IMG/VR virus record: IMGVR_UViG_3300046792_000046
Span: 1 to 43,831 of that record
Direction: 5' to 3' (one strand)
DNA length: 43,831 bases
From: a virus
Part shown: one piece after another, positions 4,608 through 10,278 of the stretch
Layout of the letters: each line of letters begins with the position of its first letter
How positions within the stretch are numbered: position 1 is the first letter of the stretch
Notes under the pieces: generated by a model
Database searches by the model: none
Told to the model about the DNA's origin: nothing
Seen by the model: the letters and a program-made list of their open reading frames with translations, nothing else
Program-made: the position numbers and the translations under genes

Positions 4608-5099
4608 GTGAGCGTCAACGAGAGCAACCCACTATACGAAGCCTGTGTTGGCTTCATGGTGGCGGAGAAGTCTGAGGCAGACAGTTGGGAGAAGGTGGCC
4701 CGGTTTGTCCAGACCAAGGTGGACAACGGCAGCGGCGACGAGGCGCAACTCAAGGCCGAGTTCTCCGTGGTCGAGAAGCAGATCAAGAAGGACTTCAGCG
4801 TGACCACACTGCCCACTGCGTGGCGCACGGCGAAGAGCACGGCAATGTCAGCGGCACGAGCAGAGGTCAGTCTGCTTGACGACACGGGCACAGTGAAGGG
4901 AAAGAGCGGCATCGAAGATGAAGTGCGCGGAAAGAAACTCGGCACAGATGTGCCCACCCTCGTCGAGAAGATTGTCGCTGACCTTAGCAACTCAGCTTCA
5001 CGGATGACAGGACTGCGCATCACGTCCCTCGATATGTTGCTGCTCGACGCGGCTGTCGAATCCGTCAACTACGCAAGGAGAACCTGCGTCGATGCTTAA
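4608..5099 (+). CDS. Unknown protein, paralogue of the 1205-1663 product
   Basis: A 163-residue product from a GTG with AAGGGA upstream; the only longer start would be TTG at 4542. The segment WRTAKS to GIEDEV aligns with YRVAKG to DIEDQL of the earlier gene, and the remainder has similar helical composition. The gene overlaps the start of the VWA/zincin gene by 8 nt, so it is coupled to the CobT/CobS-like pair and may work with it. No motif defines its function. Confidence 0.75.
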   Translation: MSVNESNPLYEACVGFMVAEKSEADSWEKVARFVQTKVDNGSGDEAQLKAEFSVVEKQIKKDFSVTTLPTAWRTAKSTAMSAARAEVSLLDDTGTVKGKSGIEDEVRGKKLGTDVPTLVEKIVADLSNSASRMTGLRITSLDMLLLDAAVESVNYARRTCVDA

Positions 5100-6879
5100 C
5101 CATCTGGAAATGGAACGGTACGTCGCAGCCACCGCTCGTCGGGCGGACATGCGCGTGCAGTGGGAACCCATCGAAGCGCCCCGCACAGATGGCAAGACCA
5201 TCTTCCTGCCCGCTATGGGTGCGGGCATCAGCCAGAAGGACTACAACCGGGTGCGGCACTTCGTTACCCACGAGGTAGACCACAACCTGTACACCGACTT
5301 CAAGAATCCAACCGCTATCGAGAAGGGGGTCAACTCCAGCAGCAGCTTGCTCGGTGCGATTTGGAATTTGAACGAGGACCACCGCATCGAGTTCCTAGGA
5401 ACACAGGAATACGAAGGCGACAGGCTGTGCTCCAACGATGTGTACGGCGACATCATGGACCAGCTCGCTGACGGGCTACGCAAGAACCCCAACCCCAATC
5501 TGGCGGACACGTTCCTGCCTCTCGCAGCGTGGTCGAACAAGGCATGGGCCGACTACTACCCGAGCGCCCATCTCGTGCAGGAATCCATCGAAGCTCGCCT
5601 GTCACCAAAGGCGAAGGCTTACTACGACAAGTTGAACAAGGGAGATTACCTGGATGTTCTTAGGAACATTCGGGAAGAGGCCGATCCCACGAAGGGCACG
5701 CAAGCCACGCTCGAACTGTCGCGCCGCATCTTCGACGAGGTGTATGGCGGCGACCACGAGAAGGAAGAGGAACGCTGCAAGCAACTGAAGCAAGCGCAGC
5801 AAGGTGAGGGTGGCGGTGAAGAAGGGGAAGAAGGCAAGGACAAAGGGAAGGGCAAAGCTAAGGGCAAGGGCACGCAGCAAGGTGAGGGCGAAGGTGAGCG
5901 CGACGACAGTGAAGGTCCGCCGATCAACGTGGACTACACATCAGTGATACGAGAAGCCCACGCCCCGGACCAAGGCGTTACCAAACGGGGAATGCACATC
6001 AACTACGGCGGTTTCCGTGGCACCAACAGCTACGTTCCGCCGACGGAGAAAGACTTCCTTGTACGGGACATGACGAACAACTCGGTGCCGCGCCGCTCTT
6101 CGGAGCCTGAGTATTACGAAGGCTCCATCAAGGACGCGCTGGCCAACACGTCGAGTGGCTTTGCTCATCGGGTACGCACCATCCTGCAAATCCGCAACCG
6201 GGACAAGTATCAGTACGGAACGAAGCGAGGCAAGCTGCACAACAGTGCGCTTCACCGGGTGCTGGTGAAGGATGTGCCCGGCTACGACGAGCGCATCTTC
6301 AAGAAGAAGCAGGTGAACAACGTACTCGACGCCGCTATCACGCTGATCGTCGATCAGTCTGGTTCGATGGGTGGCGATAAGTTTGTTCACGCATCGGCCG
6401 CTGCGGTGATGCTCAGCGAGACAGTGGGGAACATCCTGCACATCCCCACGGAAATCATCAGCTTCTCCACCGAGAGCGCACGCAGCAGCATCTTCATCCA
6501 CCGCAAGTTCAACGACAAGCTGGTATCCCGCGAGGACTTGACGCGCCGCTTCAACAAGGCTGCCGAGTACGGCATGTCCAGTAATGGGGATGGTGAGGCA
6601 ATCCTGTGGGCGTTCGACCGCATCATCCAGCGCAAGGAGAAACGCAAACTCATCGTGGTGTTCAGCGATGGCAGTCCTGCCTATGGCCAGCGTGGTGACG
6701 ATATGTACTACGCCAAGAAGGTGGTTCACGACATCGAAAAGGATTCGCCCGTGGACATCGTGGGCATCGGCATCATGGATCGGAACGTCGAGCTGATTTA
6801 CAAGGAGCATCAGGTCATCAAGAAGGCACACGAACTTGAGGGCGTGCTGTTGGCTCTCATCGAAAACAAACTGAAGTGA
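5092..6879 (+). CDS. CobT-like VWA protein with N-terminal zincin motif
   Basis: A 595-residue protein. The N-terminal part has an HEXXH motif (HEVDH, residues 60-64) followed near residue 94 by NEDHRIE, the arrangement seen in zincin-type CobT/VWA relatives. The middle is a Lys/Glu/Gly-rich low-complexity linker (about 225-280). The C-terminal part is a von Willebrand A domain with MIDAS residues DQSGS (421-425) and a later FSDGS (Asp 526). VWA proteins of this type pair with MoxR/CobS AAA+ ATPases, as in cobaltochelatase, and equivalent pairs are known in N4-like phages. Its partner ATPase is the next gene. Chelatase activity is not implied; a chaperone or remodelling role is more likely. 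The start has AAGGAG 10 nt upstream. Two palindrome copies fall inside (FLGT, VLRN). Confidence 0.9.
   Translation: MLNHLEMERYVAATARRADMRVQWEPIEAPRTDGKTIFLPAMGAGISQKDYNRVRHFVTHEVDHNLYTDFKNPTAIEKGVNSSSSLLGAIWNLNEDHRIEFLGTQEYEGDRLCSNDVYGDIMDQLADGLRKNPNPNLADTFLPLAAWSNKAWADYYPSAHLVQESIEARLSPKAKAYYDKLNKGDYLDVLRNIREEADPTKGTQATLELSRRIFDEVYGGDHEKEEERCKQLKQAQQGEGGGEEGEEGKDKGKGKAKGKGTQQGEGEGERDDSEGPPINVDYTSVIREAHAPDQGVTKRGMHINYGGFRGTNSYVPPTEKDFLVRDMTNNSVPRRSSEPEYYEGSIKDALANTSSGFAHRVRTILQIRNRDKYQYGTKRGKLHNSALHRVLVKDVPGYDERIFKKKQVNNVLDAAITLIVDQSGSMGGDKFVHASAAAVMLSETVGNILHIPTEIISFSTESARSSIFIHRKFNDKLVSREDLTRRFNKAAEYGMSSNGDGEAILWAFDRIIQRKEKRKLIVVFSDGSPAYGQRGDDMYYAKKVVHDIEKDSPVDIVGIGIMDRNVELIYKEHQVIKKAHELEGVLLALIENKLK
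5391..5402. repeat. Dispersed palindrome, exact copy
   Basis: Read as FLGT directly after the NEDHRIE motif of the VWA/zincin protein. Confidence 0.95.
5656..5667. repeat. Dispersed palindrome, one-mismatch copy
   Basis: GTTCTTAGGAAC, read as VLRN in the VWA/zincin gene, only 265 bp after the previous copy. Confidence 0.85.
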
Positions 6880-6882
6880 ACT

Positions 6883-6894
6883 GTTCCTAGGAAC
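6883..6894. repeat. Dispersed palindrome, exact copy
   Basis: Lies in the 30-bp gap between the VWA gene and the AAA+ ATPase gene, just before the ribosome site (GAGAGGG) of the latter. Confidence 0.95.
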
Positions 6895-6909
6895 AAGAGA
6901 GGGCAAGCA

Positions 6910-8007
6910 ATGATCGAGCTGGAAGCGAAGGTGAAGGAAGCGTTGCGCAAGCAACTGCTGGAGCGGGGCGCGGCGAACGCTGTGATGGCTGCGCCGGAAC
7001 CCACTCCGACCCCGGCTGAGCCGGAGAAGGAAATCGAGGTTGTGCTCAAGGCCAACCAAGTGCTGTTCAGCAAGCTGACCGGCACGACCAAGACCGAACT
7101 GAAGAAGCGCAAGCTGCGCGACTTCGCGGTGACGCTGCTGGACGTGGCGTCCATCCCGACGCAGGTCAAGGCGTTCATCCCCACCAAGAACACGGCCTAC
7201 AACATCCAGGTGGACGAGGCCCATGCGCTGATGTTCGCTTGGGAATTGGGCGAGAAGGTGCTCATCACTGGCCCGACAGGTTCGGGCAAGTCCAGCCTCA
7301 TCGAGTACTGCTGCGCCCTCACCCATCGACCGCTCATCCGGGTCAACATGACCGGCGACATGGAGTCGGCAGTGCTGTTCGGGCAGCTCGTGGTGGAGAA
7401 CGGCGGCACCGTCTGGAAGGATGGGCCGGCTACCGAGGCCGTGCGCTACGGTGCGGTGCTGCTCAATGACGAGTGGGACGTGACCCCGCCCGAGATTTTG
7501 TTCGGCTTCCAGTGGTTGTTCGAGGACAAGGGCAAGCTGTTCCTCAAGGAAATGCCGGGCGACTCGGAGAGCAAGTTCATCACGCCACACGACAACTTCC
7601 GCATGGTGTGTGCCGGTAACACAGTGGGCCAAGGTGACGATACGGGCCGCTACTCTGGCACCAACGTGCAGAACAACGCCACCATCGACAGGTTCCAGAC
7701 CACAATCGTGCTGGACTACCTCGACGCGGTACACGAAACCAAGATCATCGAGGACAACTGCACCGGCCTGTGGCCGGGATTCGCCAACAAGATGGTGAGC
7801 TTCGCCAACCTCGTTCGCACGGCGTCGAAGCAGAACAACATCAACCTCACCATGTCGCCCCGCACCCTCATCAACTGGGGACGCAAGGCCGTGGTGATGA
7901 ACGACATGAAGCGAGCACTGGTCCTCTCGTTCGTGAACAAACTCCGCGACACCGACCGCAAGATTGTGTCCGAGTTCTACACGAAGGTGTTCGGCGGGAC
8001 GCTGTAG
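6910..8007 (+). CDS. MoxR/CobS-like AAA+ ATPase
   Basis: A 365-residue AAA+ ATPase. Walker A is GPTGSGKS (residues 121-128). Walker B-like LLNDEWD has acidic residues 187-188. Later AAA+ elements include a sensor-like FRMVCAGNTVG and an arginine-rich C-terminal helix. Its position after the VWA gene reproduces the MoxR-VWA partnership, in which ATP hydrolysis remodels a target presented by the VWA protein. CobS-like ATPases occur in many phages with unknown targets. The N-terminal 100 residues are helical and may bind the partner. The stop TAG shares its G with the next palindrome copy. Confidence 0.9.
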   Translation: MIELEAKVKEALRKQLLERGAANAVMAAPEPTPTPAEPEKEIEVVLKANQVLFSKLTGTTKTELKKRKLRDFAVTLLDVASIPTQVKAFIPTKNTAYNIQVDEAHALMFAWELGEKVLITGPTGSGKSSLIEYCCALTHRPLIRVNMTGDMESAVLFGQLVVENGGTVWKDGPATEAVRYGAVLLNDEWDVTPPEILFGFQWLFEDKGKLFLKEMPGDSESKFITPHDNFRMVCAGNTVGQGDDTGRYSGTNVQNNATIDRFQTTIVLDYLDAVHETKIIEDNCTGLWPGFANKMVSFANLVRTASKQNNINLTMSPRTLINWGRKAVVMNDMKRALVLSFVNKLRDTDRKIVSEFYTKVFGGTL

Positions 8008-8018
8008 TTCCTAGGAAC
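8007..8018. repeat. Dispersed palindrome, exact copy
   Basis: Starts on the last base of the ATPase stop codon. It is read as VPRN in the integrase frame. Confidence 0.95.
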
Positions 8019-8633
8019 GAAGAGAATGCCAGAGACAGGTACGTCGAACACCTTGAGCTGCGCCGCTTTGCCAAGCGATGCTGTCCAGATTGGCTCCGTG
8101 CCTATCTACTCCTCAAGTACCTCACCGGACTACGTATGGGTGACATGCTTCGGCTCGACAATTCGGCTGAAGGTGCGCGAGGACTCGTCGTCAGGATCGG
8201 TAAAAGCAGACGACGTAAGGTTCTGGAATTCAGATGGACAAGGGCGCTACGCACCACAGTTGGATTCATTCATCGACTTGGGCAAGGTGAAGCTGAGCAC
8301 GCTGACCAACCCAAAGGAAAAGCAGATAGCGACCGATGCCCGAGACGGGAAGTCGGTGAAGAATCGAATGGTAGCTCGTCTCACCAACAATTCTTCCGAA
8401 CTCGATCTGGTGGACGACTCAGTGTCAGTGGGTTTAAGAGTGCGTGGCGACGTGCCATGCAGCAATGGAAAGGATTAGGGAATGAACCCTTCAGAGAACA
8501 CGACATCCGAGGAAAAACCGGAAGCGATAGTGGAACTCTCGCTGAAGCATCCGAGCGCCTTGGCCATGACCGCACCAGTACCACTGCTAAGCACTACCGG
8601 CGGGGTGTCAGTAGGGTCCGTCCCCTCCGGTAG
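8007..8633 (+). CDS. int: Tyrosine recombinase (integrase) catalytic domain, start unresolved
   Basis: The frame encodes a complete tyrosine-recombinase catalytic core: the box I Arg in LTGLRMGDMLRL (codon 8133), a beta-hairpin Lys (8202), HxxR in HDIRGKTG (8499-8510), LGH (His at 8565) and the nucleophile Tyr in KHYRRG (8595). The protein would join phage DNA at attP, about 350 bp downstream, with a host tRNA gene. There is no ATG, GTG or TTG in this frame between the upstream ATPase sequence and ATG 8136, which lies inside box I. The only near-cognate codon is CTG 8058. The usual N-terminal core-binding domain is absent. Expression could need a frameshift from ATG 8026 or from the ATPase gene, or this may be a truncated gene or contain a sequence error. 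The coordinates mark the open frame from the ATPase stop. Confidence 0.75.
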   Translation, partial: VPRNEENARDRYVEHLELRRFAKRCCPDWLRAYLLLKYLTGLRMGDMLRLDNSAEGARGLVVRIGKSRRRKVLEFRWTRALRTTVGFIHRLGQGEAEHADQPKGKADSDRCPRREVGEESNGSSSHQQFFRTRSGGRLSVSGFKSAWRRAMQQWKGLGNEPFREHDIRGKTGSDSGTLAEASERLGHDRTSTTAKHYRRGVSRVRPLR

Positions 8634-8940: not shown

Positions 8941-8976
8941 ACACTTGCGGTTTTCTTAGACAGGACCACACGTAAG

Positions 8977-9025
8977 TGGCGGAGCGGACGGGACTCGAAC
9001 CCGCGACCCCCGGCGTGACAGGCCG
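8977..9025 (-). other. attP: attP core: 3' part of a tRNA-Asp gene
   Basis: Read on the minus strand, these 49 nt run from the 5' side of the anticodon stem through the loop CTGTCAC (anticodon GTC, Asp), variable loop GGGTC, T arm GCGGG-TTCGAGT-CCCGT, acceptor CCGCTCC, discriminator G and CCA. They agree with proteobacterial tRNA-Asp sequences as I recall them. The 5' half of the tRNA (D arm, acceptor 5' strand) is missing, so it is not a functional tRNA. A 3' tRNA fragment next to an integrase is the classical attP core, which restores the host tRNA on integration. Confidence 0.85.
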
Positions 9026-9039
9026 ATGGCTTCGCCTTT

Positions 9040-9051
9040 GTTCCTAGGAAC
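9040..9051. repeat. Dispersed palindrome, exact copy
   Basis: Noncoding, 14 bp beyond the tRNA-derived attP core. Confidence 0.95.
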
Positions 9052-9127: not shown

Positions 9128-9433
9128 GTGAAAGATCGCGTAAGCACCCCGCCATTTGATCCTGCGTGGGCAGATCAGAAGAAGCTCGAAGCTGCGCTAC
9201 GGCGTGAGTACAACCGCATCGGAGCACGGGCATTCGTTGACGCCATCCTGCCGATACTCGAAGAGTGTGGCTTCTTGGACGACGAGCCAGTGCTGGTCCC
9301 TGCGCATGGGTTTAAATCCATGCGACCAACGGCTGCCGACTGGAAACGCCTTGATGAACTTTTCAAGGAACACGCTGTCAAAGCAGTAGCGCCACACAAA
9401 GAAGAACCCACGCCAGCGGGTCATAGTACGTGA
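9128..9433 (+). CDS. Unknown 101-residue protein
   Basis: Starts at GTG with GGGAG about 10 nt upstream and overlaps the primase gene start as GTGA. It is charged and mostly helical (KLEAALRREYNRIGARAFVD, then WKRLDELFKEH). No family is recognised. Its position directly before primase suggests co-expression with replication genes. Confidence 0.7.
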   Translation: MKDRVSTPPFDPAWADQKKLEAALRREYNRIGARAFVDAILPILEECGFLDDEPVLVPAHGFKSMRPTAADWKRLDELFKEHAVKAVAPHKEEPTPAGHST

Positions 9434-10278
9434 GCATTCCTCGTGAGCATATTCATCCTCACATCCCCGCAGTAGGCCAGCAGATTAACGTCAACCACGA
9501 CGAGTGTCCGGCGGGTCGAGACACCCGCCAACGCTTGTACATCAAGCGCACACCCGAGGCAGTGCTGGCCTACTGCCACAACTGCAACGGCCACCTAGTC
9601 GAACGCACGCACAACAAAGTGCGACCGATGGCGCTGTTGGAAAAGCTGATACGCGAAGGGGAAGCCACTGAACTCATCCAGCAGGAAGTCAAAATGCCTG
9701 ACGATGCGACTTCCCTTCCCCACGAGTGGCCACCCGAAGCCCTCGCCTGGGTGTACCAGTACAACCTCGACGACACCGACATTCTCAGACACGGCATCAG
9801 CTATTCCCCCTCATGGGGACGTGTCATCTTGCCCGTGTATGACGGCGGCAAGCTCATCTTCTGGCAAGGCCGACGAGTCAACGAAACCCCTGCTCCCAAG
9901 TACATCAGCGTGCGCTCAGCGCACAAGCCGCTGTTCACGGTGATGGCCCTACCACACACCCCTGCCATCATCACACGAACTGTAGCCATTGTTGAGGACT
10001 ACCTCAGCGCACTCCGCATTGCCAAGAGCGGAGCGGCCGACGCCATTGCGCTCCTAGGAACAGATGGTCCAAGCGACTTGCCCTCCCGCCTATCGGGATA
10101 CAGGAAGATTTTGGTGTGGCTCGATGCGGACCATGCCGGAAGAACGAAGGCCGGACCATTGGCAACACGACTGTCCACGACGACACGCTGCAAGGTGGGA
10201 ACCATTACATTCAAGCAGCCGAAAGAATGCACAGACGGAGAAATCTACACCGCAGTCGTAGACACCAGCTACAAGTAA
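9430..10278 (+). CDS. DNA primase (zinc-binding and TOPRIM domains)
   Basis: A 282-residue primase like the primase half of T7 gp4, making RNA primers for lagging-strand synthesis. The N-terminal zinc ribbon uses Cys 26 and the CHNC pair (Cys 49, Cys 52), with His 23 or His 55 as the probable fourth ligand. The TOPRIM core has Glu 189 in IVEDYLSA and the metal-binding LDAD (Asp 232, Asp 234). Primase and helicase are separate genes here, unlike the fused T7 protein. The start is GTG, overlapping the previous stop. A palindrome variant is read as LLGT inside the TOPRIM domain. Confidence 0.9.
   Translation: MSIPREHIHPHIPAVGQQINVNHDECPAGRDTRQRLYIKRTPEAVLAYCHNCNGHLVERTHNKVRPMALLEKLIREGEATELIQQEVKMPDDATSLPHEWPPEALAWVYQYNLDDTDILRHGISYSPSWGRVILPVYDGGKLIFWQGRRVNETPAPKYISVRSAHKPLFTVMALPHTPAIITRTVAIVEDYLSALRIAKSGAADAIALLGTDGPSDLPSRLSGYRKILVWLDADHAGRTKAGPLATRLSTTTRCKVGTITFKQPKECTDGEIYTAVVDTSYK
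10050..10061. repeat. Dispersed palindrome, one-mismatch copy
   Basis: GCTCCTAGGAAC, read as LLGT in the primase TOPRIM domain. Confidence 0.8.

Follow-up and report, generated by a model that had tools for sequence, protein, structure and literature searches.

A 49-nt fragment of tRNA-Asp in an IMG/VR virus record, analysed here over its full 43,831 bp (the window), is very probably the anticodon-class attP core of a tyrosine integrase whose module has been partly deleted, and comparison with relatives suggests that the phage is probably unable to integrate alone. Only the catalytic domain of the integrase remains, and the element is therefore classed as an attP core that belongs to a broken module; insertion machinery of a known type seems to have disappeared only recently from this uncultured phage. 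The sequence identities, the synteny, the module in relatives and the truncation are direct observations (Table 1).

Table 1. Positions in the window of the fragment, the integrase remnant and the neighbouring features
Feature	Position	Strand	Remarks
CbbQ/MoxR-type AAA ATPase	6910..8007	+	left neighbour of the module in relatives
Tyrosine integrase remnant	8007..8633	+	catalytic domain complete, N-terminal domains missing, no in-frame start after CbbQ
Palindrome GTTCCTAGGAAC	8007..8018	.	at the putative deletion junction
Flank CTTACGTGTGGT, 12 nt beyond CCA	8965..8976	-	common to the window and G009 (L131 5790-5801), not L151/L157
Putative attP core, tRNA-Asp(GTC) 3′ half	8977..9025	-	nt 29-77, anticodon stem 5′ arm through CCA
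Predicted crossover region	9011..9025	-	anticodon stem-loop CGGC-CTGTCAC-GCCG, 7-nt loop between inverted stem arms
Palindrome GTTCCTAGGAAC	9040..9051	.	anticodon end of the core is 14 nt away; L151, L157, L159 keep this distance to within 1 nt
Primase (Toprim)	9430..10278	+	right neighbour of the module in relatives

The tRNA-Asp 3′ half and the phage that carries it

Read on the minus strand, the fragment is CGGCCTGTCACGCCGGGGGTCGCGGGTTCGAGTCCCGTCCGCTCCGCCA, which is exactly nt 29-77 of a 77-nt gammaproteobacterial tRNA-Asp(GTC). The initial annotation had recognised in it the anticodon arm through CCA of this tRNA and proposed a comparison with bacterial sequences, and both the identification and the comparison are borne out: Photobacterium and Aeromonas caviae replicons match 8975-9025 at 51/51 nt. 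At an E value of 8e-18 in 7.3 Gb, a chance origin of this match is excluded. An exact copy of 45 nt of the fragment is present in 41 IMG/VR stretches; for 36 of them, ARAGORN predicts a full tRNA-Asp(gtc) gene whose 3′ end is this sequence. In the window, neither ARAGORN nor Rfam detects a complete tRNA at this position, and the element is therefore a true 3′ half.

Identity to the tRNA starts at the anticodon stem-loop in the window and in four related phages (G009, L151, L157, and L158), as it does in five further fragments (L090, L094, L107, L108, and L120). Because every fragment examined here begins at the anticodon stem, crossover most likely takes place in the loop CTGTCAC, a placement that follows the anticodon (A) class of attP (PMC4383910). 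Beyond the CCA end, the 12-nt flank is identical in two otherwise divergent phages, the window and G009, yet is missing from the closer L151 and L157. It was not found after tRNA-Asp in GTDB species contigs, and host tRNA identity does not explain it.

Among annotated phages, the large terminase subunit (TerL) is closest to that of an unclassified podovirus genome (59% identity), then to Methylophilales phages MEP401/402 (56-57%), with roseophages such as P12053L at 53% and ICP2-type vibriophages at 52%. MEP402, whose record assigns it to Zobellviridae, shares the gene order of the window and has no annotated integrase. On sequence grounds, namely TerL identities of 52-57% to classified members (MEP402 OP830907.1, ICP2, Celeribacter phage P12053L) and the two-arm order and primase-helicase-polA series shared with MEP402, the phage is Zobellviridae-like. 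In contrast to MEP402, the window contains an integrase remnant, the attP core, and a CobT/CbbQ-like pair. The earlier description of the phage as T7-like holds for the replication set (Toprim primase, DnaB-type helicase, family-A polymerase) but not for the terminase and gene order, which are Zobellviridae-like. The pair consists of a CobT-like VWA protein and a CbbQ/MoxR AAA ATPase (5092-8007), lies beside the replication genes, and is kept across many relatives. The window also encodes a PagP-like lipid A acylation protein (2101-2604; PHROG 3600, E 7e-21) and a complete tRNA-Tyr (GTA) gene with a long variable arm (1769-1854).

The integration module in syntenic relatives

The order AAA ATPase, module, primase, helicase, and polA is common to the window, L151, L157, and G009, and its right side also to L158 and L159. 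In L151, a 30-kb contig, an AAA ATPase 69% identical to that of the window is followed by an excisionase-like gene (PHROG excisionase 3e-10; DUF4224), a 337-aa integrase, and a minus-strand tRNA-Asp 3′ half, after which come primase, helicase, and polA. The 47-kb contig L157 carries the same module, with DUF4224 at 3.4e-7. L158 has a full-length integrase and, at the same position, the 3′ half of tRNA-His(GTG), a tRNA identity read from the sequence. In L159, a frameshift interrupts the integrase and the fragment has shrunk to about 12 nt, TCGGCCTGTCAC. Searching with the truncated integrase alone gave no relative, whereas the full-length L151 protein and a two-sequence alignment did retrieve relatives.

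The more distant G009 encodes a 341-aa integrase and a 62-nt stretch identical to the window at 61 positions, including the 12 nt beyond CCA. Its integrase (L131 4350-5375) is full length and its attP-like fragment intact; the activity of this enzyme is doubtful, however, since in the alignment Ala occupies its catalytic Arg-I position. Beside it, at L131 4003-4353, lies an ORF with a GGQ-like stretch (GTGSGGQKRNK) whose resemblance to a release-factor domain was noted by eye only.

Fragment and integrase occur together beyond these examples. Sixty helicase-matched contigs extend at least 1.5 kb upstream and four of them carry an integrase; the tRNA fragment is present at three of these four loci and at none of the 56 integrase-less ones (Fisher p=1.2e-4). 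Five contigs hold a tRNA-Asp half without a complete tRNA (ARAGORN), and in four (L094, L107, L108, and L120) it adjoins a tyrosine integrase other than that of the window. The integrases of L094, L108, and L120 were recognised by motifs and those of L107, L108, and L120 by alignment; a PF00589 profile search missed integrases recognised by other means, such as that of L107, and its negatives were not used alone. In L153, an unrelated phage, a 42%-identical integrase is followed after some 60 nt by a 3′ fragment resembling tRNA-His.

No integrated prophage, attL, or attR was found in the GTDB, plasmid, and phage collections searched, and even for the intact relatives integration is a prediction. 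A strict DNA pattern scan of GTDB species contigs gave no match to the extended core, and the single hit of the TerL scan of genome contigs was a phage-like contig binned with Dependentiae (MAG). These contig scans used two peptide patterns and one strict DNA pattern, and can miss relatives.

Truncation of the integrase and competing readings

The remnant frame is recognised by Pfam PF00589 (E=1.4e-7) and by a PHROG integrase family (4e-8). It comprises 204-208 codons and, when aligned with the relatives, keeps all catalytic residues (R, K, HxxR, H, and Y). No ATG, GTG, or TTG start occurs in this frame between the AAA-ATPase stop and the catalytic arginine motif, and neither the N-terminal ~150 integrase codons nor the excisionase has a significant tblastn match anywhere in the window. 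L151, L157, and L158 carry a complete tyrosine integrase gene beside attP, whereas the window carries the catalytic domain only. An integrase had originally been placed directly upstream of the fragment. The integrase frame is indeed near, but it is not adjacent, as it ends about 340 nt before the fragment and another ORF intervenes.

The point of truncation is precise. The frame starts exactly at the palindromic 12-mer, and the AAA-ATPase stop codon ends on the first G of this 12-mer. The same 12-mer lies in frame (VPRN) inside the integrases of L151, L157, and L158, just before the catalytic part. The loss looks recent because the catalytic half still diverges like normal coding sequence, with a third-position excess in the second half of the frame.

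In an intact ancestor, recombination by the integrase would join attP and a host tRNA-Asp gene at their 7-nt anticodon-loop segments. The phage copy would supply a new 3′ half, keeping the host tRNA functional, and the DUF4224-type excisionase would reverse the integration. One deletion, from the AAA-ATPase stop codon to the in-frame palindrome of the integrase, would have removed the excisionase and the first ~150 integrase codons. The phage would since persist by lytic growth, its attP core undamaged but orphaned. The crossover point, past integration, and present inability are what we infer for the window phage, which probably was integrative in the past and is now lytic. The initial annotation had left open whether the phage is able, or was formerly able, to integrate. 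The syntenic excisionase-integrase-attP modules and the switch from tRNA-Asp to tRNA-His speak for the past ability, while a present one is unlikely with the excisionase and integrase N-terminus deleted. As for the marks of a temperate phage, the window has a truncated integrase, no excisionase, and no repressor recognised among the ORFs scanned.

The truncation rests on one metagenomic assembly and misassembly could account for it, the real phage having a complete module and the contig a misjoin at the repeated palindrome. The junction falls exactly on a repeat with about 30 copies in the genome, and the attP core is undecayed here, in contrast to L159, where integrase and fragment have both decayed. 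An artefact is nevertheless unlikely: assemblers usually work with k-mers longer than this 12-bp repeat, the AAA-ATPase stop overlaps the palindrome cleanly, and L151 and L157 have no second palindrome at the end of the AAA ATPase, the next one lying 355 nt further. The phage might also still integrate through its intact attP, using either the catalytic domain alone (~200 aa) or an integrase supplied in trans by the host or a prophage. FimB and FimE are similar in length to such a domain. The preserved catalytic residues, the 208 open codons, the undamaged core, and the normal third-position excess of changes in the second half of the frame would all suit continued use. With no in-frame start codon ahead of the Arg motif after the AAA-ATPase stop, the N-terminal domains of the relatives missing, and the excisionase absent, this is quite improbable.

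Two further readings detach the fragment from integration. It could have been kept for another role, for instance if the rightward early transcript yielded an RNA antisense to host tRNA-Asp: it is antisense to the early genes, and the window and G009, whose integrases both seem compromised, agree at 61 of 62 nt over a stretch that includes 12 nt outside the tRNA. Such a role is very unlikely, as tRNA-His replaces tRNA-Asp in L158 and the fragment follows the integrase: none of the integrase-less relatives examined has it, and L159, with its broken integrase, has almost lost it. The association of fragment with integrase, and the fragments beside other integrases, are predicted by an attP core and not by an RNA-level role. 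The presence of a full tRNA-Tyr on the phage might instead suggest the remnant of a phage-borne tRNA-Asp gene, or else a chance capture of host DNA; this is barely credible, given that the fragment is always the 3′ half from anticodon stem to CCA and always at the same locus beside the integrase, even where the tRNA species has switched. The attP core of a broken module remains the preferred reading.

The palindrome is not confined to the junction. The window contains 20 exact copies and 31 with at most two mismatches, against 1.25 expected; the 31 sites span 716 to 43728, also within coding sequence, with a spacing of about 1 kb in the left half. Some relatives carry variants (GTTCYTARGAAC, GTTCCCAGGAAC, and TTACTAGTAA) and others none. 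These variants reach similar density in relatives in which no integrase was found, such as G006, and the palindrome is therefore not a signature of lysogeny. A dependence on lysogeny was considered and ruled out on the same grounds: G006 has 21 sites, and G002 and G003 have many, all being genomes or fragments without integrase hits. The suggestion that a temperate life style would explain a repressor-like site system is not supported, as G006, in which neither integrase nor tRNA fragment was found, has many sites.

A mechanical tie between the palindrome and the module, by which it regulates or shapes integration or acts as a breakage hotspot, is conceivable at rather low probability because the palindrome is in frame in the integrase, occurs in four genomes at a distance of 14 nt from the attP core, and coincides exactly with the end of the deletion. 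The same tentative proposal holds that 8026-8478 may be a real overlapping gene kept after integrase loss. An open +1 frame covers the catalytic domain in the window (8026-8478), L151 (2722-3234), L157 (6446-6988), and L158 (587-952). Its ATG follows just after the palindrome in the window, L151, and L157, and it has a conserved core, LPSDAV..YVWVTC..VRFWNSDG.GRY. Third-position divergence is reduced over integrase codons 1-90: changes affect 7/29 fourfold sites there, 14/22 in the later part of the frame, and about 60% in neighbouring genes. A direct dual-coding test of 8026-8478, comparing integrase-synonymous with alternative-frame-synonymous changes, showed no shift. The predicted product has a middling AlphaFold pLDDT of 69, and no PDB match below E 0.7 was found.

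Known systems and significance

Islands that target tRNA genes use their attP fragment to restore the gene they split, and the anticodon is the centre in about half of the mapped cases (PMC4383910). Anticodon-type (A) tDNA sites (Islander, PMC4383910; Williams 2002 cited there) resemble the window in having a tRNA 3′ fragment from the anticodon stem-loop beside a tyrosine integrase. The window differs in its truncated integrase, and an integrated copy was not found in the collections searched. T7-like cyanophages with an integrase-attP module were shown to integrate at tRNA-Leu, a reaction that needs both integrase and attP, without stable lysogeny (PMC8776855). Two of them, P-SSP7 and S-TIP37, show the same arrangement as the window locus, a podophage integrase followed by a tRNA-identical attP; the window, however, belongs to another lineage with another target, and their integrase is functional. 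As these cyanophages integrate without stable lysogeny, even the intact relatives of the window phage need not be classical temperate phages. In marine podophages of the HMO-2011 type, an integrase gene lies upstream of the replication genes as it does here, a likeness of gene position alone (PMC8528129).

The locus warns that an attP core and an integrase frame alone are insufficient to call a phage temperate. It also documents a complete excisionase-integrase-attP module at a fixed position in a small clade of Zobellviridae-like podophages, a clade in which the target has switched once, from tRNA-Asp to tRNA-His, and decay is seen at two different stages. Together with a cultured relative that has no annotated integrase, the module, the switch, and the decay stages make the gain and loss of integration directly traceable in a podophage lineage.
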